Below are positions 168-25,862 of a DNA stretch of 64,000 bases, in pieces; position 1 is the first letter of the stretch, and each line of letters opens with the position of its first letter. A program made the translations under genes and the position numbers. The notes under the pieces were generated by a model that had not been told where the DNA came from, did not search any database, and saw only the letters and a program-made list of their open reading frames with translations. This stretch comes from Candidatus Nitrospira nitrificans (GTDB lineage: Bacteria > Nitrospirota > Nitrospiria > Nitrospirales > Nitrospiraceae), in NCBI RefSeq assembly GCF_001458775.1, contig NZ_CZPZ01000031.1:62001-126000 (forward strand). Reading direction: 5' to 3'.

Positions 168-1214
168 TTACTCCTTTCGCGAGACGCTGTTGCGTAACCG
201 TTCTAACGAGGTCCGTTGATAGAGGTCGCTCCCTGGCTGAGGCTTCCCGGAAGAGAGCGCGCTCAGCAAAGCGCGGGCGGTTCCGGTTCGCGGCCCACTC
301 AGAGATCCGCCGCTGGAAGCCACGGCCAACGGGACCAATCGACTCAGACCGGACGTGACGCTGTGCAGGAGCAACATTCCACTCCTGGTGGCATCGCCAC
401 CGGGGTTCCCCAACGAGAGGCCTCCGGCCAAACTTGCTCCCAGGGACGCGACATGGAGCAAGACATAGGCGGCGGTGATGGAGAGGAACAGCAGGCCGAC
501 GACATCTGCCAGGATCGAGGTGGTTGAATAGGCACTTAGCACGTGCAGACAGGCATTTCGCAGGAGGCTCGCGAGAAAGGTGATGACCGCCATGATGAGG
601 ATGTTGGTGAAGACGGCGACCAGCGCGCTGGATAGCCAATTCTCCGCATAGCGCTGCGTCACGGGAAACATCGCGCAGAAGATGAAGGCGGGTCCGACCG
701 CAAGTAACAGGGCGAGGCTCACTTTTGCGACGAGAAAGAGTCCCATCGCGACAAAGGCCATCACGATCGACGCCGTGGCACAGATCGCTCCCGCGATGAA
801 GAGGGAGAATTGCGGGACCAGTCCAGAACTCGCTTCGGTGAACAGCGTTTCCATCAACGTCGTGAAGGGGTCGGCCATCTGGTCGATGGCGCCTCCCATC
901 GAGAGCACCCCGCCGAAGGCAGAGGCGAAGGCCTCTTGAATGCCGTCCAATCCTTCCTTCACGAGACTCCGATACTGTGGCCCGTTCAACGTCAGCCCGG
1001 TGATGAGCGCCACGCGAAACCAGCGCCAGACGAGGGCCGTGACCGGTTCCTGCACGTCGCCGCGCATGACCTGAAAGCCGGTCCACATGACATAGAGCGT
1101 CATGGCGGTCACGGCGACCGGCGCGAGCACTCCGATGACGGCATCGCTGGAGGCCACGACATAGTGGTCCAGGGCGTTGTTCACCGACTGCTCGATGTAG
1201 GTCGCCATGCCCAT
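168..1214 (-). CDS. virB6: VirB6/TrbL-type inner-membrane channel protein of a type IV secretion system
   Basis: This 348-residue protein has several long hydrophobic helices: about residues 20-45, 140-160, 165-185, 195-225 and 235-265. Between and around them are glycine- and serine-rich loops, including GGVLSMGGAIDQM near residue 105. That is the layout of the TrbL/VirB6 family, the polytopic membrane protein that lines the DNA translocation channel. The C-terminal 60 residues are hydrophilic and likely cytoplasmic. It sits 8 bp after the VirB4 gene and 3 bp before the VirB5-like gene, so it is part of one minus-strand transfer operon. Confidence 0.85.
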   Translation of the reverse strand: MGMATYIEQSVNNALDHYVVASSDAVIGVLAPVAVTAMTLYVMWTGFQVMRGDVQEPVTALVWRWFRVALITGLTLNGPQYRSLVKEGLDGIQEAFASAFGGVLSMGGAIDQMADPFTTLMETLFTEASSGLVPQFSLFIAGAICATASIVMAFVAMGLFLVAKVSLALLLAVGPAFIFCAMFPVTQRYAENWLSSALVAVFTNILIMAVITFLASLLRNACLHVLSAYSTTSILADVVGLLFLSITAAYVLLHVASLGASLAGGLSLGNPGGDATRSGMLLLHSVTSGLSRLVPLAVASSGGSLSGPRTGTARALLSALSSGKPQPGSDLYQRTSLERLRNSVSRKE

Positions 1215-1222
1215 CGGTTGCT

Positions 1223-3718
1223 CTACGCGACTCCTCTTCCGTGCTCCTGCCGGAGACGTTTTCGCGCCGCGATGCGTTCATGAAAGATGGGAAGCCAGTC
1301 TGTGGGATCATCGCCTACTTCGGCTCGGATCTGGTCCAGCAACGCCACGTTGTCCGTTGTACCCGAGAGGACATTCAACAGATCCGTCATGCCGCCCAGG
1401 TCGAATTGCACGATCGCCGAGCTGTGGCCCTGCTTCACGAGAAACAGACGGCTCGCTTCCCCGAGGTTCTTGATGATGTGAAATTCCGCCTCCGTGACTT
1501 TGAACCCCTGCACGTAGTCGTCATGGTCGGCGCGAGGGTTGGGTAAGAAGATCTGGGTCACGCTCTGTTCCACCATCGTTTTGCCGATGGGATGTCTCAA
1601 CACGTCAGAGGGGGATTGCGTGACGAAGACGCCGAGGCCTGATTGTTTGCGGATGGTCTTTTGCTTGTTGAAGGCGAAGTCCGCGAATAGCGGGTCTTGC
1701 AGTGGCTTCCAGAATTCCTCCATGACATAGATGAAGGGCTCGCCTGTAATCAGCCGTTCGGTCAGATGAAGCAGATAGGCCATGATCGGGGTGCGGACTT
1801 CAGGATCGTCCAGAAAGTCCGTATAGTCGTAGCCGAATAATCGTGCGCCGCTGATCTCATGGGAATCGTGTGGATTGTCGAAGGCCCAGCCCAGCGCGTG
1901 ACCGCGGGTCCAACGCTTTAACCGTGCCCGCACACTCTGGTCGCCGGTGGCCAGGAGGTTCTGGCGGAGAAGGGACAGAGAGCGCAGCTCCGGGGAGACC
2001 GTCTCACTCATCACCGTCCGCACGGCATGGCTGATCTCGCTCTGTTCCTTTGAAGTGAGCAGGGGAATCTCGTCACCAGGCTGCTTCACGAGTTGCGCCA
2101 CGAGCTGTTCGCAGAATTGCCAATTTTGGGGGCTGGGCTCGAGCTGCAAGGGATTGAAGCCGGTCGGCATCCCGCGTTTGAGCGACTGATACCTCCCGCC
2201 CATGGCCCGGATCCCGATCTCCGCGCCACGATCTTTGTCGAAGACCACGCAGCGGAGTCCTTGGTACTTGGTCGCGAAGGCCAGGAGGCTCAGTTCCAAC
2301 GCGGTCTTGCCCACACCCGTGCTGCCGCAGATAAAGGTGTTGCCGGGATACTTCTCGTCGCGCGAATCTCGATCCTCCGGTGACACGTGGAAATTGAAAT
2401 AGTAGGGCTGGCCGCTTGGGGTCTTGAACAGGGCCAGGGCTTCGCCCCAGGGATTGCCCGCTCGTTTGCCACGGGCGAAATTGTGAAAAGGACTGAGGCA
2501 AACAAAGTTCCGGCTGGTGATGACGGCTTCGCGCGGCCGCAGACTCCAGTTGCCCGGGATCTGTGCGAACCAGGCACATTCGGGGATCACGTCGACCCGC
2601 GCCATCTTGAACCCCGGCCCATCCTGAAAGACAGCCCGGGCATCGGCGAGCGCGGTGCTCACTGACTCTATCGTGCCGCCAAAGATGGCCAGGCTGTAGT
2701 GGTACTGGCCCAAGTCGATGAGCCCGCTCTGCAGATCGTCCGCGGCCTGATCCATCTGTTCGATCTCGCGCGTCGCCGCGTCTTCCGAGGCGATCAAATG
2801 CCCTTTCTGGGTGGCGAGTGATTTGAGGGCCGCGCGTTTGTTGAGGCACGAAAAGCTCTGGGTCTCGATGTACTCGGCGTCGCTATAGAGGAGACCGTTA
2901 TTCATGCCTGGCTCGGAGAAAGGCGGGTATTCCTGCATGTCGAGAAACCCAGCGAATTTCCGCTCGCGCGGGTGCCAGATTTCCAGCATGCCGGTCCGGT
3001 CGCCGAAGTGCAGGCGAGAAGAGGGGAGGTACGAGGCCAGCGGTGCTCGCCGCAGCGGAATTTCCTCCCAGACGCCATTGATGAGGTAGCTGAGAAAGGC
3101 CAGCTGGTCGGAGTACAGGATGTCTCGTTTCGTGTAGGTACCGAGGCGGATGGGCCCATAGCGACTGAGACTCGCTTCGAGTTGTTTGCTCATGTCTTCC
3201 AAGACGGTCAGCTGTGCGGTTTCCTGCTCTCGTCGTTGAACTATCGTGCGGGTACCCATGCGAGTGAAGAAGCTTGCGACCTTGGACGGAAAGGGTCGGT
3301 ACAGCAGGGAGAGGTACAGCTCCGTCGCCATTTGTCGATGCTGCGTAAATGACTGATAGTAGCGATCGCTCAGGTGTTGGCAGAAGGGATTGGGCGAGGT
3401 GCCTTGCAACCGTTCAGTGACGACCCGCCGAATTTTATGCGACCAGACCGCGAAAGACCCGCCGCCCAAGGATCGGAGAAACTGGTGCAGCGCTTCTTTG
3501 CGCAGCAGGACTTCTGAACGGTCCGCTGTTTCGAACGTGATCCCGTCCAGTTTCCAACAGGCCAGATACTCTCCACCGGTCAAGGTGATGACGGTGGGCG
3601 TGATCGATGTGCCCAGCGGGATATAGTCACTCGCAGGAATCTGCGCGGACGCGGCTTTCGCGAGCGCGGCTCTAGTCCTCATTCTTTGTCTCTGTTCAAC
3701 CTGCTGCATTGAGAACAC
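1223..3718 (-). CDS. virB4: VirB4/TrbE conjugal transfer ATPase
   Basis: At 831 residues this is the usual length of the CagE/TrbE/VirB4 family, the cytoplasmic ATPases that power pilus assembly and substrate transfer. A Walker A motif GSTGVGKT lies near residue 463 and is followed by CVVFDKDRGAEI, typical of VirB4. The segment VMEEFWKPLQDP near residue 655 matches the Walker B region, and ARADHDDYVQGFKVTEAEF near residue 740 the conserved C-terminal part. The N-terminal half is the poorly conserved TrbE_N-like domain. It is intact, so the machine encoded here may be functional. It is the third gene of the minus-strand transfer operon, 20 bp after VirB3. Confidence 0.93.
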   Translation of the reverse strand: MFSMQQVEQRQRMRTRAALAKAASAQIPASDYIPLGTSITPTVITLTGGEYLACWKLDGITFETADRSEVLLRKEALHQFLRSLGGGSFAVWSHKIRRVVTERLQGTSPNPFCQHLSDRYYQSFTQHRQMATELYLSLLYRPFPSKVASFFTRMGTRTIVQRREQETAQLTVLEDMSKQLEASLSRYGPIRLGTYTKRDILYSDQLAFLSYLINGVWEEIPLRRAPLASYLPSSRLHFGDRTGMLEIWHPRERKFAGFLDMQEYPPFSEPGMNNGLLYSDAEYIETQSFSCLNKRAALKSLATQKGHLIASEDAATREIEQMDQAADDLQSGLIDLGQYHYSLAIFGGTIESVSTALADARAVFQDGPGFKMARVDVIPECAWFAQIPGNWSLRPREAVITSRNFVCLSPFHNFARGKRAGNPWGEALALFKTPSGQPYYFNFHVSPEDRDSRDEKYPGNTFICGSTGVGKTALELSLLAFATKYQGLRCVVFDKDRGAEIGIRAMGGRYQSLKRGMPTGFNPLQLEPSPQNWQFCEQLVAQLVKQPGDEIPLLTSKEQSEISHAVRTVMSETVSPELRSLSLLRQNLLATGDQSVRARLKRWTRGHALGWAFDNPHDSHEISGARLFGYDYTDFLDDPEVRTPIMAYLLHLTERLITGEPFIYVMEEFWKPLQDPLFADFAFNKQKTIRKQSGLGVFVTQSPSDVLRHPIGKTMVEQSVTQIFLPNPRADHDDYVQGFKVTEAEFHIIKNLGEASRLFLVKQGHSSAIVQFDLGGMTDLLNVLSGTTDNVALLDQIRAEVGDDPTDWLPIFHERIAARKRLRQEHGRGVA

Positions 3719-12439: not shown

Positions 12440-15400
12440 ATGAGGCTAACATCATTGGATAACCATGGCGCAGCTCTTGTTATTGGCATAGTTTCAGCAC
12501 TGGTAGTGGTTATGCTTTATATCCTTATGCCAAATTTGATCTCATCATGGGAGTTGAGTACATATGACCTCCGTATGCAATTGCGTGGGAGTGTCAAGCT
12601 TACTTCTCAGTTGGTGATCATCGCCAGAGATGACGTCAGTGATGAGGAAATTGGAGTGGGAATCTGGAATCGCCAGGTCTTTGCCAAAGTCATTGACGCC
12701 CTCCATCGCGCTGGTGCGAGAGTGATCGCACTGGATTTTGACTTTAGTCAGGCTAGTCCCAAGGAGCGAGGTGGGGAATCTAGTGACCAGGCATTGATCA
12801 GTGCTATGCGGCAATCTCATACGGTGTTTCTCCCGCTTCAGGTAACGCAAGAACAGGAATCCGAGACGTCGGTGGACCGTACATTTGGTCTCAACGCAAG
12901 CGTCTTCTTGGAAAAAGGGGTGTCTCATCGTCCACCATTCCTTCTCGATGTTCCACGGGTTGGCCAGGTCTTTCCACCGATGTTCAGGTTTCTCAGCGAA
13001 GCGAACGGGATTGGTCATGTCGCAGCCATACCTGACATTGATGGGGGTTACAGGCGTACCCCGGCTTTTGTGAGAAGTGGCGATGTGATTATTCCAGCCT
13101 TGGGTGTTTCACTCGCGGCAGCATACCTTGGTGTGAGTCCGGAGGCGATAGAACTCACGCCAGAAAAGACGTTGGTATTCAAGGGTGCAATAGCTTCTGA
13201 TGGTATGCAGCGTGACCTGTCTATTCCCGTTGACCTGCAGGGAAATGTATTGCTCGATTACGCTGGACGTTGGGAGGGAGAGACCGAGTATTTCCCCATC
13301 ATTGATGTGTTGAATAAAATTGAGAACGAAAAGGATGGCATAGACGGGTTGCGAAAGACTGTTCAAGGGAAAGCCGTCTTAATTATCCATGCTGCGATCG
13401 AAGCCGATAAACGGAGAACGCCCTTGGAGTTGAAGGCGCCAGGCGGGTTTATTTTGGCAAACACGTTTAATACGATTGTGACAGAGCGAAAACTCCATCT
13501 GCTCCCGGTTTGGGAGCAGTGGGGACTTACTGGGGTGTTGGCAATCTTCGTAGCCTGGTCGGCGCTATTGCTTCAAGGTTGGAGAAGTCTCGTGGGTGTT
13601 AGTGTTCTGGGTGTCTTGTATATAGCTGGCGCCTATGGAGCGTTTGCCTGGTTCGGCATGGTCGCGCCGATAGTGGTACCGATGGTCGGCTTGGTAGTGG
13701 CTTCAGGTGGCGCGTTGACCTGGACGTCTTGGTTAGGTCTCGGGCAAGTACGAGAGGCTGAATCTAAACGGATGGCACTACAGCAAGAGGTGATGGGTCT
13801 CCATGGACTCCGAGAGAAGCAGGAGGCTCGGATCAGACAGTTAGAAGCTGCATCAGCAGCTGCACAATCTGCACGGCTGACGCAAGAGCAGGCACTGAAC
13901 GACTCACAGCATCTCCTGGTAGAACAAGTAGATTATGTGAAGCGGTTGGAAGGTGAGTTGGCGATTGTGAAAGGTGCGCCAAGAGAACAAGGGGTTCCGT
14001 CAGCGGAAGAACGCGAGCGTCTTGAGATCGAGCTGCGTCGTGCGAAAGAAGAACTGGTACAGACAGAGAACCGTGCCGTTAAGTGGCAGAACATATGCGA
14101 GTATGAAGCGCAAGCGCGTGAACGTTTGGAAACTGAGCTACGACTGGCCAAAGCAGAGCGAGAGAAGACAGACCAAACAATCGCGTCATCGCCAGCAAAG
14201 CGTACAAGTCTCTGGGCCCATGAGCCTAGTCATACGGCGCTTTCAGCTGATGAAAAGAAAAAGTTGCAGGATTTGTGTGAGGAGGACATCATCACCAGTG
14301 ATCCAGGATTGCTGCATTGCTTGAAGGATCTGGAAAAGGTCGCTCAGAGTATGGTGAAGATCATGTTCCTTGGTGAGCCTGGGACAGGCAAGGAGCGTTT
14401 CGCGTTCTTGGCTCATAAGTGGAGTGACCGGAAGGGACGCCCATTTGTTCCTGTCAATATGGCAGCGATCCCACCAGATCTCTTTGAGAGTCAACTGTTT
14501 GGACATAAAAAAGGTTCTTTTACGGGAGCAATTGCTAATCACGATGGTTATTTTCTTCAGGCTGACACTGGCACGCTATTTTTGGATGAAATCGGTGATC
14601 TGAATTTCGTATTGCAAGCCAAACTGTTACGCGTGTTGCAGGATGGTTTCGTTACCCGCGTCGGCGAAAAGGAAGCGATTAGGGTGGATGTACGAGTGGT
14701 GTCGGCGACCAATAAGGATCTGTCGAAAGAGATCGCAGAAGGGAGATTCCGACAGGATCTCTATGATCGTTTATGCGGGATTGAGATGAGATTGCCACCT
14801 CTGAGAGAACGAATGGGTGATGTCCCTAAACTCGCGCAGTTGTTCCTTGGACAGGCAGCTGTTAGGAATAAGAAACCAAATCGTCCACTCTCGAATGATG
14901 CGAGCGCTCGTCTTCAAACATGGACTTGGCCTGGGAATGTTCGGGAGTTGGAAAAATGCCTGGAACGAGCTGTTCTTCTTGCGGAAGGTTCGGAAATCAC
15001 GGAACGAGATCTAGGCTTAGGTCGGGTGTCAGACGAATTAGTGGTTCCGCCGACGGCTACACCATCATCTCCAATGATTCAGGACACGGATGATATTGAC
15101 CTAAGTCTTGAGGAATTGGAGTTTTTAAGGGCAATGCGCCAACATTGTTTGACGATAGGGAATGCCGCGGATGAACTCGATTGGAGTCGTGATACTGTCA
15201 CGGAGTGGTGGAAAGGACTGTGTTTTAAGGCCCTGGTGTATCATCAGTTCGATCGGGAGAAAGCGGCGGCTAGCTTGGCCGGAGAGTCTGGGCTGACCAA
15301 GCTAGTGCTGAAGAAACTGAACGAGTATGTGAAGGGACTTAACAAAGTGGTTTCAGAGGATCCCCCTTCTTCGGATTTTCGTGCCTGGTGTAAACAACAC

Positions 15401-15466
15401 TTCAAAAATCTGCCAGCTTGCTATTATCCAGCAATTGACGCTCTGATTCGTGCCCGTATTGTGTAG
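12440..15466 (+). CDS. Membrane-bound CHASE2 sensor fused to a sigma-54 AAA+ activator
   Basis: This 1008-residue protein joins an extracytoplasmic sensor to an enhancer-binding ATPase. Residues 11-33 are a membrane helix, residues about 38-340 a CHASE2 domain (LSTYDLRMQLRG, VIALDFDFSQ), residues 355-435 three membrane helices and 440-600 a coiled coil. The AAA+ domain has Walker A GEPGTGKE (645-652), the sigma-54 contact loop GSFTGA (692-697, normally GAFTGA), Walker B with D716/E717 and the WPGNVREL motif. A C-terminal part with a degenerate Fis-like helix-turn-helix (AAASLAGESGLTKLVLKKL) follows. CHASE2 is common in adenylate cyclases and kinases. Fusion to a sigma-54 activator is unusual. 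It is the last gene of the operon and probably activates the promoters at 6017 and 15796. Confidence 0.88.
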   Translation: MRLTSLDNHGAALVIGIVSALVVVMLYILMPNLISSWELSTYDLRMQLRGSVKLTSQLVIIARDDVSDEEIGVGIWNRQVFAKVIDALHRAGARVIALDFDFSQASPKERGGESSDQALISAMRQSHTVFLPLQVTQEQESETSVDRTFGLNASVFLEKGVSHRPPFLLDVPRVGQVFPPMFRFLSEANGIGHVAAIPDIDGGYRRTPAFVRSGDVIIPALGVSLAAAYLGVSPEAIELTPEKTLVFKGAIASDGMQRDLSIPVDLQGNVLLDYAGRWEGETEYFPIIDVLNKIENEKDGIDGLRKTVQGKAVLIIHAAIEADKRRTPLELKAPGGFILANTFNTIVTERKLHLLPVWEQWGLTGVLAIFVAWSALLLQGWRSLVGVSVLGVLYIAGAYGAFAWFGMVAPIVVPMVGLVVASGGALTWTSWLGLGQVREAESKRMALQQEVMGLHGLREKQEARIRQLEAASAAAQSARLTQEQALNDSQHLLVEQVDYVKRLEGELAIVKGAPREQGVPSAEERERLEIELRRAKEELVQTENRAVKWQNICEYEAQARERLETELRLAKAEREKTDQTIASSPAKRTSLWAHEPSHTALSADEKKKLQDLCEEDIITSDPGLLHCLKDLEKVAQSMVKIMFLGEPGTGKERFAFLAHKWSDRKGRPFVPVNMAAIPPDLFESQLFGHKKGSFTGAIANHDGYFLQADTGTLFLDEIGDLNFVLQAKLLRVLQDGFVTRVGEKEAIRVDVRVVSATNKDLSKEIAEGRFRQDLYDRLCGIEMRLPPLRERMGDVPKLAQLFLGQAAVRNKKPNRPLSNDASARLQTWTWPGNVRELEKCLERAVLLAEGSEITERDLGLGRVSDELVVPPTATPSSPMIQDTDDIDLSLEELEFLRAMRQHCLTIGNAADELDWSRDTVTEWWKGLCFKALVYHQFDREKAAASLAGESGLTKLVLKKLNEYVKGLNKVVSEDPPSSDFRAWCKQHFKNLPACYYPAIDALIRARIV

Positions 15467-18856: not shown

Positions 18857-20503
18857 TTAACAGCCATCCGCTGGGTGATTGTTAGAGCATGGGGTGCTGG
18901 GAGCTACCTTCGTCCAGCTGCAAACACGTGTCCGAATGCCGCTTTGGCCCTCTTCAAATTTCCGGCCCTCACCTTGGCTGTACGTTTCGCACACGGAATC
19001 CCGCTTCTTAATGCTTCCCCGCATACGACGCCAAAGGCCCATGCTCGCAAGCGAAAAGAATAGCCGCGATCGTAAGCCATCGGACCATCGTGGCCATTCA
19101 GTCACATCAAATAGCTCATGTAAGTTGGCGAGGCTCCTTTCACAGTATTCAACGAGTTCGGGACTGCGGTATTGATCCTGATCAAAAAAGTGATCTTGTG
19201 TCTGTCCCGGAGGCCTTCTGCATAGCACAGAGCGACTAAGCTGTCGGAACCATGTCGGCGCGGGGACTGTTGCGTCTGTTGGGAAATCGAGGAGCCGCGG
19301 CTCGAACCGATGAATGAGGTTTCGGTGAAGAGTGTTTCCGTATTTCCAAATTCGTGGAGCTTGTCTAGCTGCATGTACCCATGAGTCCGAGCAGAAGGGG
19401 ACCACCCAATCGGTGTGAAGGGAAATAGCCGATATATCCGTGCCCGACTTATTGGGCGTTCGTACCTTGGTAAAAATATGGTCGAGTGCATCGCCGAGTT
19501 GCAGATGTCGCGGCATCAGACGATCGAATCGATCCTGCCACCCATCCTGACCGAGTGCAATCTGCAACTCTGGATGTAACGAAGCCGTTTCCTGGTCGGT
19601 CAGTGCCAGAGCGGTTCTCTGATGCCAGAGGTTTCTGGCAAAGTATCCATGTGATGAGAGTCCTGCCCTGACCATCGATAAGACTCCGCGAGAATCGTAG
19701 TAGCTGCGGAGAGCCTCACCATTGAACCCCAGGAACATCCGTGTCCCTCGAAGGTAGCGGGGGAACAAAACACCAGGCCAGTGACTAAGAGGCAATTGTC
19801 CATTTGTTCTAGACACCAAGCGTTCTGCATCGGCCAGAAAATCTGCGGCTGTCACTTCGCATTCAGTAAGCTCAAGCGAGAATTTTCGGGAAATCGCTCT
19901 GGCGACCCTCAAGTCATGAGAGTCTCGGTGTCCACATACCAACAAGCGAGGACGTTCGCCGCACTTCAATAACACGGAGAGTAGCAGCCTCGAATCCAAT
20001 CCTCCAGTCAGACACAGAACATCGTTCGCTTGTCCCCACCACCGCATGACCTCTGTCTGCAGGTTGGCACAGAGGTCGGAAGTGGAGAAGGGGCTAGGAT
20101 CTGCGTGTGAGACGTCGAGATATGAGCGGATCTGTCCACCTTCAAAAACGAGTACAGAGGCTGGAGGGGTGCGTTGAACGTCAGCATAGAGCGTATCATT
20201 GCCAATGGTATGATCCAGGAGAAGGACATCAGCTATCGCTCTGTAATTCCACCGAAAGGGACCGTCCAAGCCTGAACAGACATCGAGGACGGTCTCACCG
20301 TGAATAACGGAGTCAGCGCAAGCTGCGTAATAGTAGTGTTGAACGCTATGATGGGAAGTCACGATCGTCGTGACGCTTTGCTCCTCAGCTATGACGACGA
20401 ACTGACCTCTGGCTGAGAGGATTTCTTTGGCCTTGCCACTGCGTATGAGCTGAATCAGCCGTTCATCAGACCATTCGCAGTATCCGAGCGTCTTGATCTG
20501 CAC
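18857..20503 (-). CDS. Asparagine-synthetase-like ligase of the RiPP cluster
   Basis: This 548-residue protein belongs to the class of ATP-dependent ligases that includes asparagine synthetase B and the lasso-peptide cyclase. Residues 1-130 resemble a degenerate glutaminase half, but there is no N-terminal catalytic Cys after the start (it begins MQIK). The PP-loop motif TGGLDSR (166-172) starts the synthetase half. It would activate a carboxylate as an adenylate and join it to an amine, possibly in the precursor peptide. The last 60 residues (GIRTRVCSWTKV...) are a Cys-containing extension of unclear role. It is the last gene of the precursor-oxygenase-radical SAM operon. The GTG start (20503) is weakly supported by a ribosome site. 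Confidence 0.75.
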   Translation of the reverse strand: MQIKTLGYCEWSDERLIQLIRSGKAKEILSARGQFVVIAEEQSVTTIVTSHHSVQHYYYAACADSVIHGETVLDVCSGLDGPFRWNYRAIADVLLLDHTIGNDTLYADVQRTPPASVLVFEGGQIRSYLDVSHADPSPFSTSDLCANLQTEVMRWWGQANDVLCLTGGLDSRLLLSVLLKCGERPRLLVCGHRDSHDLRVARAISRKFSLELTECEVTAADFLADAERLVSRTNGQLPLSHWPGVLFPRYLRGTRMFLGFNGEALRSYYDSRGVLSMVRAGLSSHGYFARNLWHQRTALALTDQETASLHPELQIALGQDGWQDRFDRLMPRHLQLGDALDHIFTKVRTPNKSGTDISAISLHTDWVVPFCSDSWVHAARQAPRIWKYGNTLHRNLIHRFEPRLLDFPTDATVPAPTWFRQLSRSVLCRRPPGQTQDHFFDQDQYRSPELVEYCERSLANLHELFDVTEWPRWSDGLRSRLFFSLASMGLWRRMRGSIKKRDSVCETYSQGEGRKFEEGQSGIRTRVCSWTKVAPSTPCSNNHPADGC

Positions 20504-20575
20504 TCGTGCACCGCCTTCGTTACGCTGTTCGAGAAACCTTACAGCTAGAGAGCTGAACCAAACTTCCTCTTTTAC

Positions 20576-21754
20576 TTAGACCATGGGAGAAAAGCGTTGT
20601 GATTCAGGAGGGGGAGATTCTATTCCAATTTCGCATTCCATTGCAGAAAGTACAACATCTGCGACTGCCTTTACTGTCAATCGGCAGTGGTGAGTCTCCA
20701 TGGTGGCAAAAGAATGCTTTTCATAAAGCTTGTTAATTGGGGCTCCACCACCACAAACAGAAAAGTACTCACAGCCGGACCGACAAAGCGTCGTCCCAGC
20801 GGAAATATCGGTTACCAGGCGCGGCCAGGTCTCTGTATAGGGGATGCCATCCTGCGTCCATGACAAGACATTGCCAATGCTAAAGTGACCGAATATTGGA
20901 TGGGTCATTCCAAGCAGTTCTGGTGAAAAAGTTCCGATGTCTCCGTTTGATGCAATACTTAAGATTGAAAATGGTTCATTTTGAGTGTTGCGCGTGGAAG
21001 AACCTGCTCCGGCCAAAATTAGCGATCGCATGGACTTGAATTCCCGCACGGTCACTCCCGTTCTCTGCGACCACTTCATCAAATCTTCTAAAAACTCTCG
21101 AAATCGACCATCAAAGCTGTCCTCGGCAAAAGCCTTGGAGACATGCGTCCCCTCGGTTTCTTCTATGTTGAGACCGAGCTGGCCCATCCCTTCTAAATTC
21201 TCAAAGAAGTCCATAAACTCACTGGCATGGTGCAGTGTGTCAGGAGTGATGACTGCAATGACGTCAAATTTGAAATGAGCCGCTTGTAGGCATTGAATGC
21301 CGTCCATGACTTTCTGAAATGTACCCCCGCCTCGACGCGTAAGGCGCCGGGTATCATGTATGACCGGCGGCCCATCAATGCTCACGCCCACAGTAACGCG
21401 GTTAGCTTGTAAGAGATCAACCCATTGGGGATCCAAGAGAACGGCATTTGTTTGGATAGAATGGTGTAGGGCTGTTTGCTCTCCAAGGATGCAACGCGCT
21501 CGTGCAAATGCGTCTTTGTAAAACTTTTTTGAAACTGCAAGCGGCTCACCAGCATGCCAACGTATTTCTAGATGATCACCAGGGAGTTCTGCATCTCGCA
21601 CAAGGCAAAAGGCTGCTTCTAAAACCTCTGGAGCCATCACGGTGTGATCGTCACGATGTGGCAGGTAACAGTAGGTACAGGCGAGATTGCAGAATGGGGT
21701 CGGCTGAAGAACAAGTTGCCGTAGGCAATTGGCAAAAGGTCTCAGCGCATTCAC
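20576..21754 (-). CDS. Radical SAM/SPASM peptide-modifying enzyme, cyclophane-forming type
   Basis: This 392-residue enzyme has the radical SAM cluster motif C22-x3-C26-x2-C29 (CNLACTYC), followed by RWHAGEPL and SIDGPPVIHDTRR. The C-terminal SPASM part has C324-x3-C328-x5-C334 in CRSGCEYFSVCGGGAPINK, and C357. The string CEYFxxCGGGAPxNK is typical of the GrrM/XyeB type of enzymes that make three-residue cyclophanes (an aromatic side chain joined to the residue two places on) in RiPP precursors. The neighbouring precursor ends in F-S-S and W-G-N, suitable targets. Its GTG start overlaps the stop of the upstream oxygenase-like gene by 4 bp, so the two are co-translated. Confidence 0.88.
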   Translation of the reverse strand: MNALRPFANCLRQLVLQPTPFCNLACTYCYLPHRDDHTVMAPEVLEAAFCLVRDAELPGDHLEIRWHAGEPLAVSKKFYKDAFARARCILGEQTALHHSIQTNAVLLDPQWVDLLQANRVTVGVSIDGPPVIHDTRRLTRRGGGTFQKVMDGIQCLQAAHFKFDVIAVITPDTLHHASEFMDFFENLEGMGQLGLNIEETEGTHVSKAFAEDSFDGRFREFLEDLMKWSQRTGVTVREFKSMRSLILAGAGSSTRNTQNEPFSILSIASNGDIGTFSPELLGMTHPIFGHFSIGNVLSWTQDGIPYTETWPRLVTDISAGTTLCRSGCEYFSVCGGGAPINKLYEKHSFATMETHHCRLTVKAVADVVLSAMECEIGIESPPPESQRFSPMV

Positions 21755-22575
21755 AACGGATTTCCCATCATAAGAAAGACAACATCTGGGATCGTTCCTG
21801 GAACAGTTTCGCCATCGTGAATATAATTTTGAGTTTGCAGTAGATACACAGTGCCAGGCGGGATCGTCACTTTTACAACAGGGTCACGAGGGAATCGCTG
21901 GAAATACAGGTCTTTGATTTCACGTGGAAGCAATCCACAGGTCTCAGGCAACTCCAGCTTATGAAGAATCGTCGACATTGCAGCCGGCACGAAATGAAGA
22001 TACCGCGATTGCCAGCCGATATTCATACTGGCTAAGACGAATGAGTCTGCTCGTTTATGTAGTGGAAGCGACTGGTGATTGTCGATGTGAAGCCCGCGGG
22101 GGCGACCCTCATCATAATCATAAGCCGTGCTTCGCATGCCGGGCGGATTCACGATAACATCTGCTGGACCAGCAGTATCTAAATTTATCCCCGCACTGAT
22201 TAATGCGTCACGAAGGCAATGCCGAAAATGCGCTATTGCTTTTACAAGTGAGTCATTACGAGCGCCGTTGGTGGCAGTCAGGGGTGCAATCAGTGTCTCA
22301 TGTGCAAGAGTGAGTAAATCCGCTGACAAATCGAGGGTCACCAAGCTCTCAGACCACGTATTCAGCGATTGCGCTGACAGGGCGTTTCGCTCCATAGCCG
22401 AAAGATCACGCCAAGGACCACGACCAACCCATGCGGTTTCCTCATTCGAGGCCTCATGGAGTATCTCAACACCATCACTCACCCTAACGTCGACAGATGC
22501 TTCGCCAAGCGGCTGCCAGCGTACCAGGTTTTTGTTTCGGACGTCTCCACTCATAGGGGAATTGCTGGTCAACAT
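21751..22575 (-). CDS. Putative 2-oxoglutarate/Fe(II)-like oxygenase of the RiPP cluster
   Basis: This 274-residue protein has a short helical N-terminus, then a double-stranded-helix-like part. Candidate metal ligands are H163-x-D165 in GLHIDNH and H253 in NYIHDG, with IPPGTVYLLQTQ before the second His, as in oxygenases of this fold. It would hydroxylate the peptide or one of its aromatic or aliphatic residues. It is joined to the radical SAM gene by a 4-bp overlap and lies 330 bp downstream of the precursor. The family is not one I can name from sequence alone. Start is ATG 22575, with a weak ribosome site. Confidence 0.6.
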   Translation of the reverse strand: MLTSNSPMSGDVRNKNLVRWQPLGEASVDVRVSDGVEILHEASNEETAWVGRGPWRDLSAMERNALSAQSLNTWSESLVTLDLSADLLTLAHETLIAPLTATNGARNDSLVKAIAHFRHCLRDALISAGINLDTAGPADVIVNPPGMRSTAYDYDEGRPRGLHIDNHQSLPLHKRADSFVLASMNIGWQSRYLHFVPAAMSTILHKLELPETCGLLPREIKDLYFQRFPRDPVVKVTIPPGTVYLLQTQNYIHDGETVPGTIPDVVFLMMGNPL

Positions 22576-22738
22576 ACACGTTCACCAATTCGAGCGGTTG
22601 GTCTGATCTGATTGCTATGACTGTAATAAGCTGAGGCGGTCGCCAAGCACTTGGGCTCGAGCTGCTGTTGGTATAGAAGAGAGGAGAATTTGGACGCTGG
22701 TTCAGGGCCAGGTAGCATAACTAGGAGTCTTGCAGCAA

Positions 22739-22763
22739 CGCTGCGGCAAAAATGGCCGCAGCG
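22739..22763 (-). terminator. Attenuator-like hairpin between precursor and enzyme genes
   Basis: CGCTGCGGC (22739-22747) and GCCGCAGCG (22755-22763) form a perfect 9-bp GC-rich stem with a 7-base loop. It lies in the spacer between the precursor stop and the oxygenase gene. There is no T-run, so it is likely a partial terminator or processing stem that keeps peptide output above that of the enzymes, as in other RiPP operons. Confidence 0.6.
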
Positions 22764-22908
22764 TCTTGAGATAGAGTCAGACTGATTCTCATGCGGATTG
22801 ACCAGACCGTGAGTGGAGAGCTCATAGTGTGGTCAGGATGGTTGAGAATCTGGGAACTTTAGTCCCCAGACGAAATCTCATCCCTCGCAGGTTGAAACTC
22901 TGGCCGAA

Positions 22909-23091
22909 CTAGTTGCCCCAGCTGGAGAAAGGAGGATTGCAACTTCCCATCGATTGAACGGAACCTTCTCGAATCTTTCTTATCCGATCTTCCATAGAGC
23001 GGATAGCACCTGTTTGACTAGATACAGACAAAGGCATATTCAACCCATTCACCATCTGCATCAACTTACCTTGCATCTGATCCTGAGACAT
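22909..23091 (-). CDS. RiPP precursor peptide with FSS and WGN core motifs
   Basis: The gene encodes 60 residues behind a very strong site, GAGGAGG, 5 bp before the ATG. The first 46 residues are a hydrophilic, helical leader (MEDRIRKIREG near the end). The last 14 are the likely core, SMGSCNPPFSSWGN, with F55-S56-S57 and W58-G59-N60 side by side at the very C-terminus. Each fits the aromatic-x-S/N target of three-residue cyclophane enzymes. C51 and the two prolines may be involved in further steps. Downstream in the same direction lie the oxygenase, the radical SAM enzyme and the ligase, so this is the substrate of the cluster. The product is unknown. Confidence 0.85.
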   Translation of the reverse strand: MSQDQMQGKLMQMVNGLNMPLSVSSQTGAIRSMEDRIRKIREGSVQSMGSCNPPFSSWGN

Positions 23092-23156
23092 AGATTCCTC
23101 CTCTGTAAATGTAAGGTTGTAAGTTATTACTACTTCAACTCACTTATAGTTAGTAA

Positions 23157-23186
23157 ATCTTACGTCTTGAAATATGGTTCTGTCAA
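23157..23186 (-). promoter_or_regulatory. Sigma-70-type promoter of the RiPP precursor
   Basis: On the minus strand, TTGACA (23186-23181) and TAAGAT (23162-23157) are 18 bp apart. The -35 is perfect and the -10 matches 4 of 6 positions. The predicted start is near 23150, giving an untranslated leader of about 58 bases before ATG 23091. Confidence 0.6.
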
Positions 23187-23352
23187 GATTCAGGATGTGC
23201 ATCCTGGAAAAAGGAGGTAGTATTGCGAGTGCCATGGATAGGAGAGGCAATCAAATGCGTGATGGGATGATGCGATTAGGCGGATGAACAGGGGAAGGGC
23301 ATCGGCAGCATGGCCGAGTAAATGAGGATATTGTGCTGGATACTCAGCATAC

Positions 23353-23368
23353 ACAATTACGTAGTTGT
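23353..23368. promoter_or_regulatory. Operator-like near-palindrome upstream of the PhyH gene
   Basis: ACAATTACGTAGTTGT is a 16-bp inverted repeat with one mismatched pair. It lies 23 bp upstream of the dioxygenase start codon, where a repressor or activator could act. No matching copy is seen elsewhere in the cluster. Confidence 0.35.
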
Positions 23369-23391
23369 GAACGTTGTAAGGGAGAAACCCA

Positions 23392-24279
23392 ATGAAGGGT
23401 GCCTGGTCTTTCCCTGGGTTGGTAGAGAGTGCTGCTTCGAATCGCACAAAGTTTGAAACGGACGGATTTGTTGTCTTGGGGCAAATAGTGGATCCGTCTC
23501 GCCTGGATCTCATGCGAGAGCACTTTTCAGCTGTGTTCAGAGGTGAATATGAGACTGGGAATCTCCCGGATTCTGCATTGTGGCAAGAGGGAACCAGTTT
23601 GCCACATCTTCCTCGATTCATGGCAAATTCCTGGAAAAGTGATTTGACCTTCGCTCGCTTCGTGCTGTCTCCAACCCTTGCACAGGCGGCGGCGGTACTC
23701 ATGGGCTGGGAGAGCGTTCGATTGGCTCAGGATACTCTTTGGTTGAAACCGCCCAAGTGGGATGAGGGTGCGTTCCACCAGGATAATCTCGATTTTCTTG
23801 AGCCTGCATTTGGCGTGACATGTTGGTGCGCTCTTGATAAGTCCACTCCCACGCAGGGAACGCTTCAATATGTACGTGGATCACATCTGTGGCCACGAAC
23901 GGATGGCTCGTACGTTGAGCCGGATGGAACACCGCCTTCACGGGCACGTATGCTTGCTGCGGCTACAGCTGCGGGCGTTACGCGTCCCGATATTGTTCCG
24001 TTAGATGTACCCGCTGGAACCGTAGTTATGCACCGTAGTGAAATGTGGCACGGTTCGGATGGCAATCAGTCAAACATTGACCAGCGACGAGCAATCGCTG
24101 TCCACCTACTTCCAAGCCGTGTTCGTTTTGTTCGATCACGAGGGGGGTATATTTTCTCCCGCTATAAGCGAATTGGATCAAACGAGCTCGATGAGAGCTT
24201 TTTCCCAATTGTATGGTCGGCATCTGGCTATAGAACAGCCATGGCCGACCATTACTGCTATGCGGGGGAGATTCCATAA
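23392..24279 (+). CDS. PhyH-like Fe(II)/2-oxoglutarate dioxygenase of the RiPP cluster
   Basis: This 295-residue protein matches the phytanoyl-CoA dioxygenase family. Metal ligands are H129-x-D131 (FHQDNL) and H220 (MWHGSDGN), and R232 or R233 would bind 2-oxoglutarate. The segments WLKPPKWDEG, GTLQYVRGSHLWP and VPAGTVVMHRS are typical. It would hydroxylate a small molecule or peptide. It is divergent from the precursor operon and convergent with the MFS gene, so it is probably an accessory tailoring enzyme for the peptide. GGGAGAAACCC precedes the ATG. A housekeeping role not linked to the RiPP is possible. Confidence 0.82.
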   Translation: MKGAWSFPGLVESAASNRTKFETDGFVVLGQIVDPSRLDLMREHFSAVFRGEYETGNLPDSALWQEGTSLPHLPRFMANSWKSDLTFARFVLSPTLAQAAAVLMGWESVRLAQDTLWLKPPKWDEGAFHQDNLDFLEPAFGVTCWCALDKSTPTQGTLQYVRGSHLWPRTDGSYVEPDGTPPSRARMLAAATAAGVTRPDIVPLDVPAGTVVMHRSEMWHGSDGNQSNIDQRRAIAVHLLPSRVRFVRSRGGYIFSRYKRIGSNELDESFFPIVWSASGYRTAMADHYCYAGEIP

Positions 24280-24455
24280 ATACATCTGTTTGGTGTTTGT
24301 GCGATTGTTGCCTGGTCTGGAAATTGAGACGTTTAGGCGATTGATGGTACCTTATGCTGCGAGGCCGCAGAGGCCAATAGCCTACCACCCAGAAAGGCAA
24401 TGTAGTTGCTCCCAGTTTGAAATGGACCCCCTGCGGTGGGGTTCAGAGATGGGCC

Positions 24456-25862
24456 TTATCGATTGGGGTCCGTTGGTCGGCGAGATACTTGGCGTAAGGG
24501 TTTCAAAAGCGGTAGTTCCCACATCAACTGGGAATGTCCCAGTTGTTCCACTTCACGAGGTTCGTGAAAGGTTCTGAGGAGTGTAGCCGAGACGATTAAA
24601 AGGAACAGGCCGGAAAGAAAGAAGATGAACGGCAGATTGGAAACGAGCTCCAGAGTCCATTCCCCAACCTGCAACCTGGCTGGCACCGTGCCAATTAGTA
24701 CACTTCCTATCACTGTTCCCATGGCCCATCCTATGGCATTGACGATGCTTAAAACGGCGATGGCTTTTGGGCGATCGGTTGCCTGGACTGCATCGAAGAC
24801 ATAGTTGCTCAATCCGAGCCCAAGCCCTGCCCATACCACGCCTCCAAAGAAATTCACGCTGACAAGAAACGGCCAAGCTGTACTGAACAGATACAACATC
24901 GGAAGAAATGCGACGAGCAGTCCAGTGAAGGTGAGTAAGGCTTTGTTCCCGAAACGATCGGCGAACTGACCCCAGGTTGGTAAGGTAAAGAATTGCCCTA
25001 GAATACCTGCCGCCAGCCAGGTTCCGTATTGCCAATACGCGAGGTGAAGATCCTGAAGTAGGTACATGACGAAGAACGGACCGGCGACCAGCAGAGACGA
25101 ATGCATGAGCCCAGAAAACAGCAGGAAGTGGCGAAAGTTTGTGGACATGCCTGTGCGGAGAAAGATGCGAAACCCGGTTGGAGTGCTACTTGGATCATGC
25201 AGTGGGAAGCTGCTTACTCTCCGCAGCAAGAGAGCCGATACGCTACGGCACAGGCCTGCCGTGAGAAACATTACGACAAAGCCTACCCAGAGGAGTTGCC
25301 GCTGTTCGAAGAAGCTCAAGAAGACACCTGCCATACAGAGTGCGATAAAACTGGTCAGTTCAACTGCCCGTGATCGTCTGGCGAAGTAACGGCCTCGCTC
25401 ATTGGGTTCAAGTAAGTCGGTGATGAGGCTATTCCACGCTGGATAGGTGAAATGGGTGAAGGTGGAATAGACGGCGACGGCTGCAATGAGAAGCCATGGC
25501 CCATGTTCAGGCCAGAGTAACGGGAGTGCGAGGATGGGGATCCACGATAAAGATTGTCCGATGATGCCCCAGAACACTTGAGAGGCCCGGCTAGGGAACC
25601 AGTGGGAGACTTTGACAGAAACGAGCTGTGCCCATGTGCCCAAGAGTTGAGGAATGGCCGAGAGGATACTCAACTGGAATGGTGTCGCATGGAAAAGTAG
25701 GGCAAAGGCCGAGAGGTATTGCTCGGCTCCGCCTTGGGCAACGGCATGGAACAGCCCATCACGAATGCCGAACCGCCGACCTGATTCATTTGGATCGATT
25801 CGAGTGGAATGGCCGTCAAGACGGTATTCTGCGGACTGTAATGATGTGTCTTGAGTGATCAT
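24456..25862 (-). CDS. MFS transporter, probable exporter of the RiPP cluster
   Basis: This 468-residue protein has twelve hydrophobic helices in two halves of six. Loops fit the MFS pattern (NERGRYFARRSRAVE after TM4-5, and GQFADRFGNK between TM8 and 9). The N-terminal 40 residues are hydrophilic. It is convergent with the dioxygenase gene, with 176 bp between them. A hairpin ACCCC/GGGGT (24426-24442) may end both transcripts. Position beside a RiPP cluster suggests export of the product, but substrate choice cannot be read from sequence. No ABC-type peptidase exporter is seen nearby, so leader removal is unexplained. Confidence 0.8.
   Translation of the reverse strand: MITQDTSLQSAEYRLDGHSTRIDPNESGRRFGIRDGLFHAVAQGGAEQYLSAFALLFHATPFQLSILSAIPQLLGTWAQLVSVKVSHWFPSRASQVFWGIIGQSLSWIPILALPLLWPEHGPWLLIAAVAVYSTFTHFTYPAWNSLITDLLEPNERGRYFARRSRAVELTSFIALCMAGVFLSFFEQRQLLWVGFVVMFLTAGLCRSVSALLLRRVSSFPLHDPSSTPTGFRIFLRTGMSTNFRHFLLFSGLMHSSLLVAGPFFVMYLLQDLHLAYWQYGTWLAAGILGQFFTLPTWGQFADRFGNKALLTFTGLLVAFLPMLYLFSTAWPFLVSVNFFGGVVWAGLGLGLSNYVFDAVQATDRPKAIAVLSIVNAIGWAMGTVIGSVLIGTVPARLQVGEWTLELVSNLPFIFFLSGLFLLIVSATLLRTFHEPREVEQLGHSQLMWELPLLKPLRQVSRRPTDPNR

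Follow-up and report, generated by a model that had tools for sequence, protein, structure and literature searches.

A predicted cyclophane peptide operon with a conserved asparagine synthetase-like ligase in Candidatus Nitrospira nitrificans

The closest described relatives of the gene cluster reported here are the OscB/GrrM triceptides (Nguyen 2020; Sugiyama 2022; reviewed in PMC11002830), ribosomally synthesized and post-translationally modified peptides (RiPPs) whose radical S-adenosylmethionine (SAM) enzyme OscB joins C7 of a Trp to the C-beta of the Asn or Asp at position i+2 (PMC11002830). In RiPP operons, asparagine synthetase (AS)-family enzymes are known to form lasso rings and C-terminal amides and, from 2026 on, also nitriles, with about 300 outside lasso clusters uncharacterised (PMC13060819). 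The DNA analysed here, called the window, is a stretch of 64,000 nucleotides from Candidatus Nitrospira nitrificans (contig NZ_CZPZ01000031.1). It contains a gene set that is supported as a RiPP cluster whose cyclophane enzyme is of the GrrM/OscB type, and that appears from its sequence to be a variant of the triceptide clusters with a conserved, predicted C-terminal ligase. As far as could be found, a ligase acting on the peptide end together with a cyclophane-forming enzyme has not been described before. Searches of the openly licensed literature, which misses most subscription journals, returned no paper that describes a triceptide cluster with an AS-like enzyme, none linking the oxygenase MicC (see below) to cyclophanes and none on radical SAM RiPPs of Nitrospira.

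The cluster consists of a precursor gene followed by three enzyme genes in the same direction:

22909..23091, minus strand: precursor peptide gene, 60 aa, core GSCNPPFSSWGN; conserved in four sister clusters
21751..22575, minus strand: MicC-type 2-oxoglutarate/Fe(II) oxygenase, 274 aa, H163-x-D165 ... H253-D-G; named from MicC homology and HxD...H
20576..21754, minus strand: predicted GrrM/OscB-type radical SAM/SPASM cyclophane maturase; TIGR04261, 362 bits against a cut-off of 310
18857..20503, minus strand: predicted AS-like ATP-dependent ligase, 548 aa, PP-loop T-G-G-L-D-S, N-terminal glutaminase part truncated

The oxygenase and radical SAM genes share four bases (21751-21754), so that the three enzyme genes downstream of the precursor look like one operon. 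The radical SAM protein exceeds the curated cut-off of the GrrM/OscB model TIGR04261 by the margin listed above, while the next model, AmcB, reaches 290.6 against a cut-off of 425. An earlier sequence-only reading of this DNA had proposed a RiPP cluster with a GrrM-type cyclophane enzyme, and both the TIGR04261 match and the conservation of the precursor bear this out.

Four more clusters of this type were found: one in another genus of the window's family (G353, locus L005), one in Streptomyces chumphonensis KK1-2 (L011) and two in members of the same genus as S. chumphonensis (G570, L018; G627, L019). The gene order precursor, oxygenase, radical SAM enzyme, AS-like enzyme is the same in all five clusters, and the radical SAM proteins of all four sister clusters also match TIGR04261. 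In a small tree of radical SAM proteins, a branch with support of 93/97 has all five AS-linked ones on the same side. The AS-like proteins of the five genomes are 30-47% identical. The window's radical SAM and AS-like proteins are 46 and 47% identical to those of S. chumphonensis and 38 and 37% identical to those of G353; this closer match to S. chumphonensis suggests, at the level of sequence identity, horizontal transfer of the cluster. The cluster type is rare, being present in 2 of 395 sampled genomes of the window's phylum and in 3 of 296 genomes of the Streptomyces sample. Within the genus and family of the window, a search for radical SAM relatives returned only the window's own protein, and in the phylum two more were found. 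One of these (G280) lies on a 5.5 kb contig with a different precursor, which is too short for judging its neighbours. A contig scan with the radical SAM protein alone gave no match, and one with a two-row alignment of AS-like proteins gave a single locus, that of S. chumphonensis. The G353 cluster carries a second oxygenase after its AS-like gene, and an extra, reversed oxygenase gene lies within the S. chumphonensis series.

The five precursors are tied together most clearly by their C-terminal ends, which all have the form GSC-x(5-6)-WG[N/D]: GSCNPPFSSWGN in the window, GSCNMGWGWGN in G353, GSCYSHSTWGN in S. chumphonensis, GSCHPGYTAWGD in G570 and GSCLSGYSTWGD in G627. Three end in W-G-N and two in W-G-D. 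The window precursor closes with M48-G49-S50-C51-N52-P53-P54-F55-S56-S57-W58-G59-N60, and its leader reads P-L-S-V-S..T-G-x-[IV]-R-S-x-E-D-R-I-x-x-x-R; in alignment, four of the five leaders share P-x-[SA]-[VL]-[SA]...T-G-x-[VI]-R-S-x-x-[DN]-R-[IV]-x-x-x-R. The relevant codons in the window are:

22912..22920, minus strand: W58-G59-N60, predicted Trp-to-Asn cyclophane motif; WG[N/D] ends 5/5 precursors, with OscB as precedent (PMC11002830)
22921..22929, minus strand: F55-S56-S57, possible second aromatic-x-x motif; aromatic at Trp minus 3 in 4/5
22939..22947, minus strand: G49-S50-C51, invariant block, the same in five precursors

Searching the window precursor against 697 ORFs (open reading frames) recovered the four syntenic precursors (E 2.6e-11, 2.0e-8, 1.7e-7 and 3e-3), and among 2,753 ORFs in ten loci only the five precursors end in WG[ND]; precursor conservation therefore exceeds what chance would give. 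The sequence-only reading had made its case depend on the peptide being conserved near homologous enzymes, which it is in the four sister clusters, and its proposal of a ring on W-G-N holds at the level of the motif. An aromatic-x-Asn/Asp motif beside the maturase gene, by which triceptides are recognised, is present in all five precursors as WG[N/D], and this fits the Trp-to-Asn/Asp chemistry of OscB. A three-residue cyclophane between Trp and Asn or Asp at the precursor C-terminus is thus a well supported prediction by analogy with OscB. The leader also carries the [E/D]-x-R-[I/V/L]-x-x-[I/L/A]-R element of the OscB/GrrM triceptides, which recurs in the GrrM precursors of Nostoc and G280. 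The precursor differs from those of the OscB/GrrM systems in that its single WG[N/D] follows an invariant Gly-Ser-Cys and closes the chain, where they have Gly-rich or multiple motifs; it matches no NCBIfam model and its sequence contains no Gly-rich repeat of the GrrA type. A further difference from those systems is the conserved AS-like ligase in the operon. The Gly-Ser-Cys block is probably the start of the core. The cores hold no Lys and no Asp or Glu apart from the C-terminal Asp of two of them, so that in the window core the C-terminal carboxylate is the sole carboxyl group.

A second ring, between F55 and S57 and directly adjacent to that of W58 and N60, is possible and would be compatible with any reading of the ligase, although we regard it as doubtful. 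F-S-S, H-S-T, Y-T-A and Y-S-T precede W-G-[N/D] in four precursors, placing F, H, Y and Y at Trp minus 3; with an aromatic background of 11.7% this has a chance probability of about 8e-4, a rough figure that ignores the relatedness of the sequences. Rings from Phe to Ser, His to Ala and Tyr to Asp are made by MscB, HaaB and YxdB (PMC11002830), but these enzymes belong to other subfamilies, and the cited Phe ring made by OscB uses Asn. Moreover, the residue at i+2 varies (S, T, A, T), and the G353 precursor has no such block, reading G-W-G-W-G-N.

The 274-aa oxygenase matches no Pfam or NCBIfam model but is homologous to the alpha-ketoglutarate-dependent non-heme iron oxygenase MicC (PDB 9vkm), with a phmmer E of 2.5e-11 and a profile E of 1.6e-34. 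The profile homology covers the full length and the HxD...H residues are kept, whereas the sequence is strongly diverged. The structure record of MicC states no reaction, and the openly licensed literature yielded no paper on this enzyme. H163-x-D165 and H253 are invariant across nine relatives, and HxD...H is present in all copies. The fold model groups with 2-oxoglutarate oxygenases, yet MicC, found by sequence, is not among the listed structure matches. By analogy with characterised relatives, the oxygenase would hydroxylate the precursor. MicC-like oxygenases also stand next to GrrM in a Nostoc plasmid and a Streptomyces plasmid. The two thus form a recurrent pair, so the oxygenases are not the unusual element. 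The sequence-only reading had called the gene combination as a whole unusual; that description fits the AS-like ligase but not the oxygenases. The Nostoc sp. TCL26-01 plasmid cluster (L007) resembles the window's: it has GrrM, a MicC-like oxygenase and a PhyH gene, and its precursor contains W-D-N, W-N-D and W-G-N. It differs in having no AS-like gene annotated beside it and a precursor with several motifs and a Gly-rich tail. In the Streptomyces plasmid (L009, 3428-11528), genes for lanthionine synthetase and thiopeptide/lantibiotic dehydratase flank the MicC-like oxygenase and GrrM, and the whole may be a hybrid RiPP cluster. A Phaeobacter plasmid (L008, 5639-7182) encodes GrrM behind a 114-aa peptide rich in W, N and S that ends in ...WNNWSNWYKPWHNFSNYSWGNW and is likely to be a multi-ring triceptide precursor.

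The AS-like ligase is the truly unusual part of the cluster and sets this group apart. Its protein barely passes the Pfam model PF00733 (21.6 against 21), and its PP-loop GGLDS aligns with that of E. coli AsnB (hhalign). The best weak NCBIfam match is the albusnodin/ikarugamycin macrolactam cyclase, AS models being weak too, and the best Foldseek matches of its structure model are beta-lactam synthetases. Residue 1 of the model corresponds to residues 69-72 in the aligned chains of beta-lactam synthetase, human ASNS and AsnB, and the first approximately 70 residues, including the glutaminase catalytic cysteine, are missing in all five homologues. In two clusters the AS-like start codon overlaps the radical SAM stop (GTGA-type), which leaves no room there for a glutaminase part. 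A classical glutamine-dependent asparagine synthetase is therefore rejected, since the catalytic cysteine region is absent in all five and the window protein scores 21.9 bits against the full-length model TIGR01536, below its cut-off of 267.

AS-family enzymes without a glutaminase, such as beta-lactam synthetase, carbapenam synthetase and the lasso cyclases, form intramolecular amides. The ligase shares with them the AS fold lacking a working glutaminase and differs from them in its predicted substrate. A lasso peptide is rejected: the lasso cyclase model NF033535 gives a weak match in one of the five (E 5e-4), none of the six cluster proteins is of the leader-binding or protease (B1 or B2) type, and an isopeptide ring would lack its Asp or Glu at the ring positions, the window core having none and only two homologues having the C-terminal Asp. 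In the nitrilobacillin pes cluster, a RiPP operon likewise encodes an AS-family enzyme, the AS-like nitrile synthetase PesC, together with oxidative enzymes, and these act close to a C-terminal Asn. That cluster has multinuclear non-heme iron-dependent oxidative (MNIO) enzymes and lacks a radical SAM enzyme, and its AS-like enzyme depends on glutamine, where the present clusters have GrrM and an AS-like enzyme without glutaminase (PMC13060819). PesC activity requires the MNIO pair PesHI (PMC13060819), and a nitrilotide of the PesC type is rejected, as none of the six proteins of the cluster fits an MNIO model.

We give about even chances to the overall proposal that the operon makes a RiPP with a C-terminal cyclophane, a hydroxylation and an ATP-driven activation of the C-terminal carboxylate, most likely yielding a lactam. 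In this pathway the precursor leader would recruit the enzymes. The GrrM/OscB-type enzyme would then join the W58 indole to the C-beta of N60, forming a three-residue cyclophane at the extreme C-terminus, and perhaps also F55 to S57, and the MicC-type oxygenase would hydroxylate one core residue. Subsequently, the AS-like enzyme would adenylate the C-terminal alpha-carboxylate of Asn60 (or Asp) and couple it to an amine. Loss of the glutaminase, as in beta-lactam synthetase and the lasso cyclases, makes an amine of the peptide itself the most likely acceptor. Together with a precursor that ends at the cyclophane residue and a window core without another carboxylate or Lys, it favours C-terminal carboxylate activation with a peptide amine as acceptor. 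That amine would most likely be the N-terminus released at the invariant Gly-Ser-Cys by leader removal, and the product a macrolactam of about 11-12 residues bearing a C-terminal cyclophane. This specific outcome, in which the ligase closes the cyclophane residue onto the N-terminus to give a small head-to-tail cyclic, hydroxylated triceptide uniting a radical SAM cyclophane with an AS-type backbone macrolactam, is offered tentatively.

Several points weigh against the lactam as a firm product. What can be read from the sequence is which genes are present, the families they belong to, their joint conservation and the motif of the precursor, and all chemistry of the cluster is prediction; the ligase substrate and the ring closure are proposed from anatomy only. 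No leader peptidase was identified among the cluster's genes. The structure model of the ligase fits amidotransferases such as TsnB9 about equally well, and it has an overall pLDDT (predicted local distance difference test) of 44, with a block at 85-93 for residues 1-50 and poor quality beyond residue 60, so that the acceptor pocket could not be inspected. A distant homologue in another genome (G925, L022 8524-10146; 27-30% identical) lies amid glycosyltransferases rather than RiPP genes. This glycan cluster was rejected as a further RiPP locus, and it shows that the fold by itself does not fix a peptide substrate; the ligase family may originate in glycan or other metabolism. Finally, free ammonia can serve AS-like enzymes of the PesC type as a substrate (PMC13060819), and an enzyme that has lost the glutaminase could therefore still amidate.

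The main rival follows from this last point: the same cyclophane pathway, with the AS-like enzyme using ammonia to make a C-terminal amide or nitrile on Asn60 and no second ring, an outcome that we hold to be possible to much the same limited degree as the head-to-tail lactam. Precedents are TsrC and ScdTA for the amide and PesC for a nitrile on a C-terminal Asn, and all five precursors stop exactly at the cyclophane residue, three of them in Asn as in PesA. PesC takes ammonia instead of glutamine and requires a hydroxylated substrate, which the oxygenase could provide here (PMC13060819). However, PesC draws its nitrogen from glutamine, whereas none of the five homologues has the N-terminal glutaminase part and its catalytic cysteine; the cluster has no MNIO gene, two homologues end in Asp, and the beta-lactam synthetases that head the Foldseek matches form lactams.

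It is unlikely that the AS-like enzyme passes over the N-terminus and links the C-terminal carboxylate to a small amine or amino acid from outside the peptide, or makes a thiolactone with the Cys thiol. In favour of this reading, Gly-Ser-Cys is invariant, the operon lacks a peptidase, so that the ligase may act before any N-terminus is free, and the internal Cys51 thiol requires no leader removal. Against it, no special amine donor gene is conserved in the five clusters, and we know of no AS-family thiolactone synthase. An ordinary triceptide cluster, in which only the radical SAM enzyme acts on the peptide while ligase and oxygenase serve other substrates, is very improbable: MicC-like oxygenases and AS-like proteins are indeed found outside such a setting, but five genomes from two lineages retain the order and common direction of the four genes, with AS-like identities of 30-47%, and GTGA-type start/stop overlaps occur in two clusters.

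In two unrelated lineages, then, an AS-family enzyme and a radical SAM enzyme predicted to form cyclophanes come together on one very short, conserved core. With four genes, cores of 11-12 residues, Asn and Asp both occurring naturally at the terminus that would be activated, and a single carboxylate, the cluster is a small, testable system. Either outcome, if true, would be useful for protease-stable peptides, adding a backbone lactam to triceptides or a new type of C-terminal capping.

All six ORFs named in the sequence-only reading were located in the window sequence at the same coordinates. The remaining two, together with the sites upstream of the precursor, are:

23097..23102, minus strand: ribosome site AGGAGG of the precursor gene, shortly before ATG
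23157..23186, minus strand: promoter-like TTGACA-18-TAAGAT, 66-95 bases 5' of the precursor; consensus match only
23392..24279, plus strand: PhyH-family oxygenase, divergent neighbour, no conserved part; PF05721, no sister-cluster homologue
24456..25862, minus strand: MFS (major facilitator superfamily) transporter, neighbour and possible exporter, no conserved part; PF07690, no sister-cluster homologue

The AGGAGG close upstream of the ATG agrees with the very strong ribosome site noted earlier for the 60-residue gene. The promoter-like consensus was found at 2 sites where 6.4 are expected by chance, and its position is as expected for the operon. The MFS gene has the operon's direction, with the divergent PhyH gene in between. 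The sequence-only reading had placed both beside the other genes; as parts of the system they are rejected, having no homologues in the four sister clusters. The window PhyH also has no significant blastp match to the Nostoc PhyH. The base composition of the cluster is unremarkable, and no repeats marking its ends were found.

The window AS-like protein is longer at its C-terminus by about 47 residues (18857-19000, minus strand) that the four sister proteins lack; the DNA there is single copy in the genome, and loss of the original stop is possible. The S. chumphonensis AS-like gene is followed (L011, 11374-13869) by genes for a protein with weak similarity to sulfotransferases and for a family 1/4 glycosyltransferase, possible further tailoring enzymes. 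The G353 cluster is followed by Rep-like, helix-turn-helix and tyrosine-recombinase-like proteins, named by eye (L005, 12236-14654), hinting at a mobile element. At the left edge of the window, about 15 kb from the cluster, the TrbL/VirB6 and VirB4/TrbE-type conjugation genes at 168-3718 (minus strand) belong to a type IV secretion or conjugative element. At 12440-15466 (plus strand), a CHASE2 domain and the AAA+ domain of a sigma-54 activator are joined in a single protein, an uncommon pairing.

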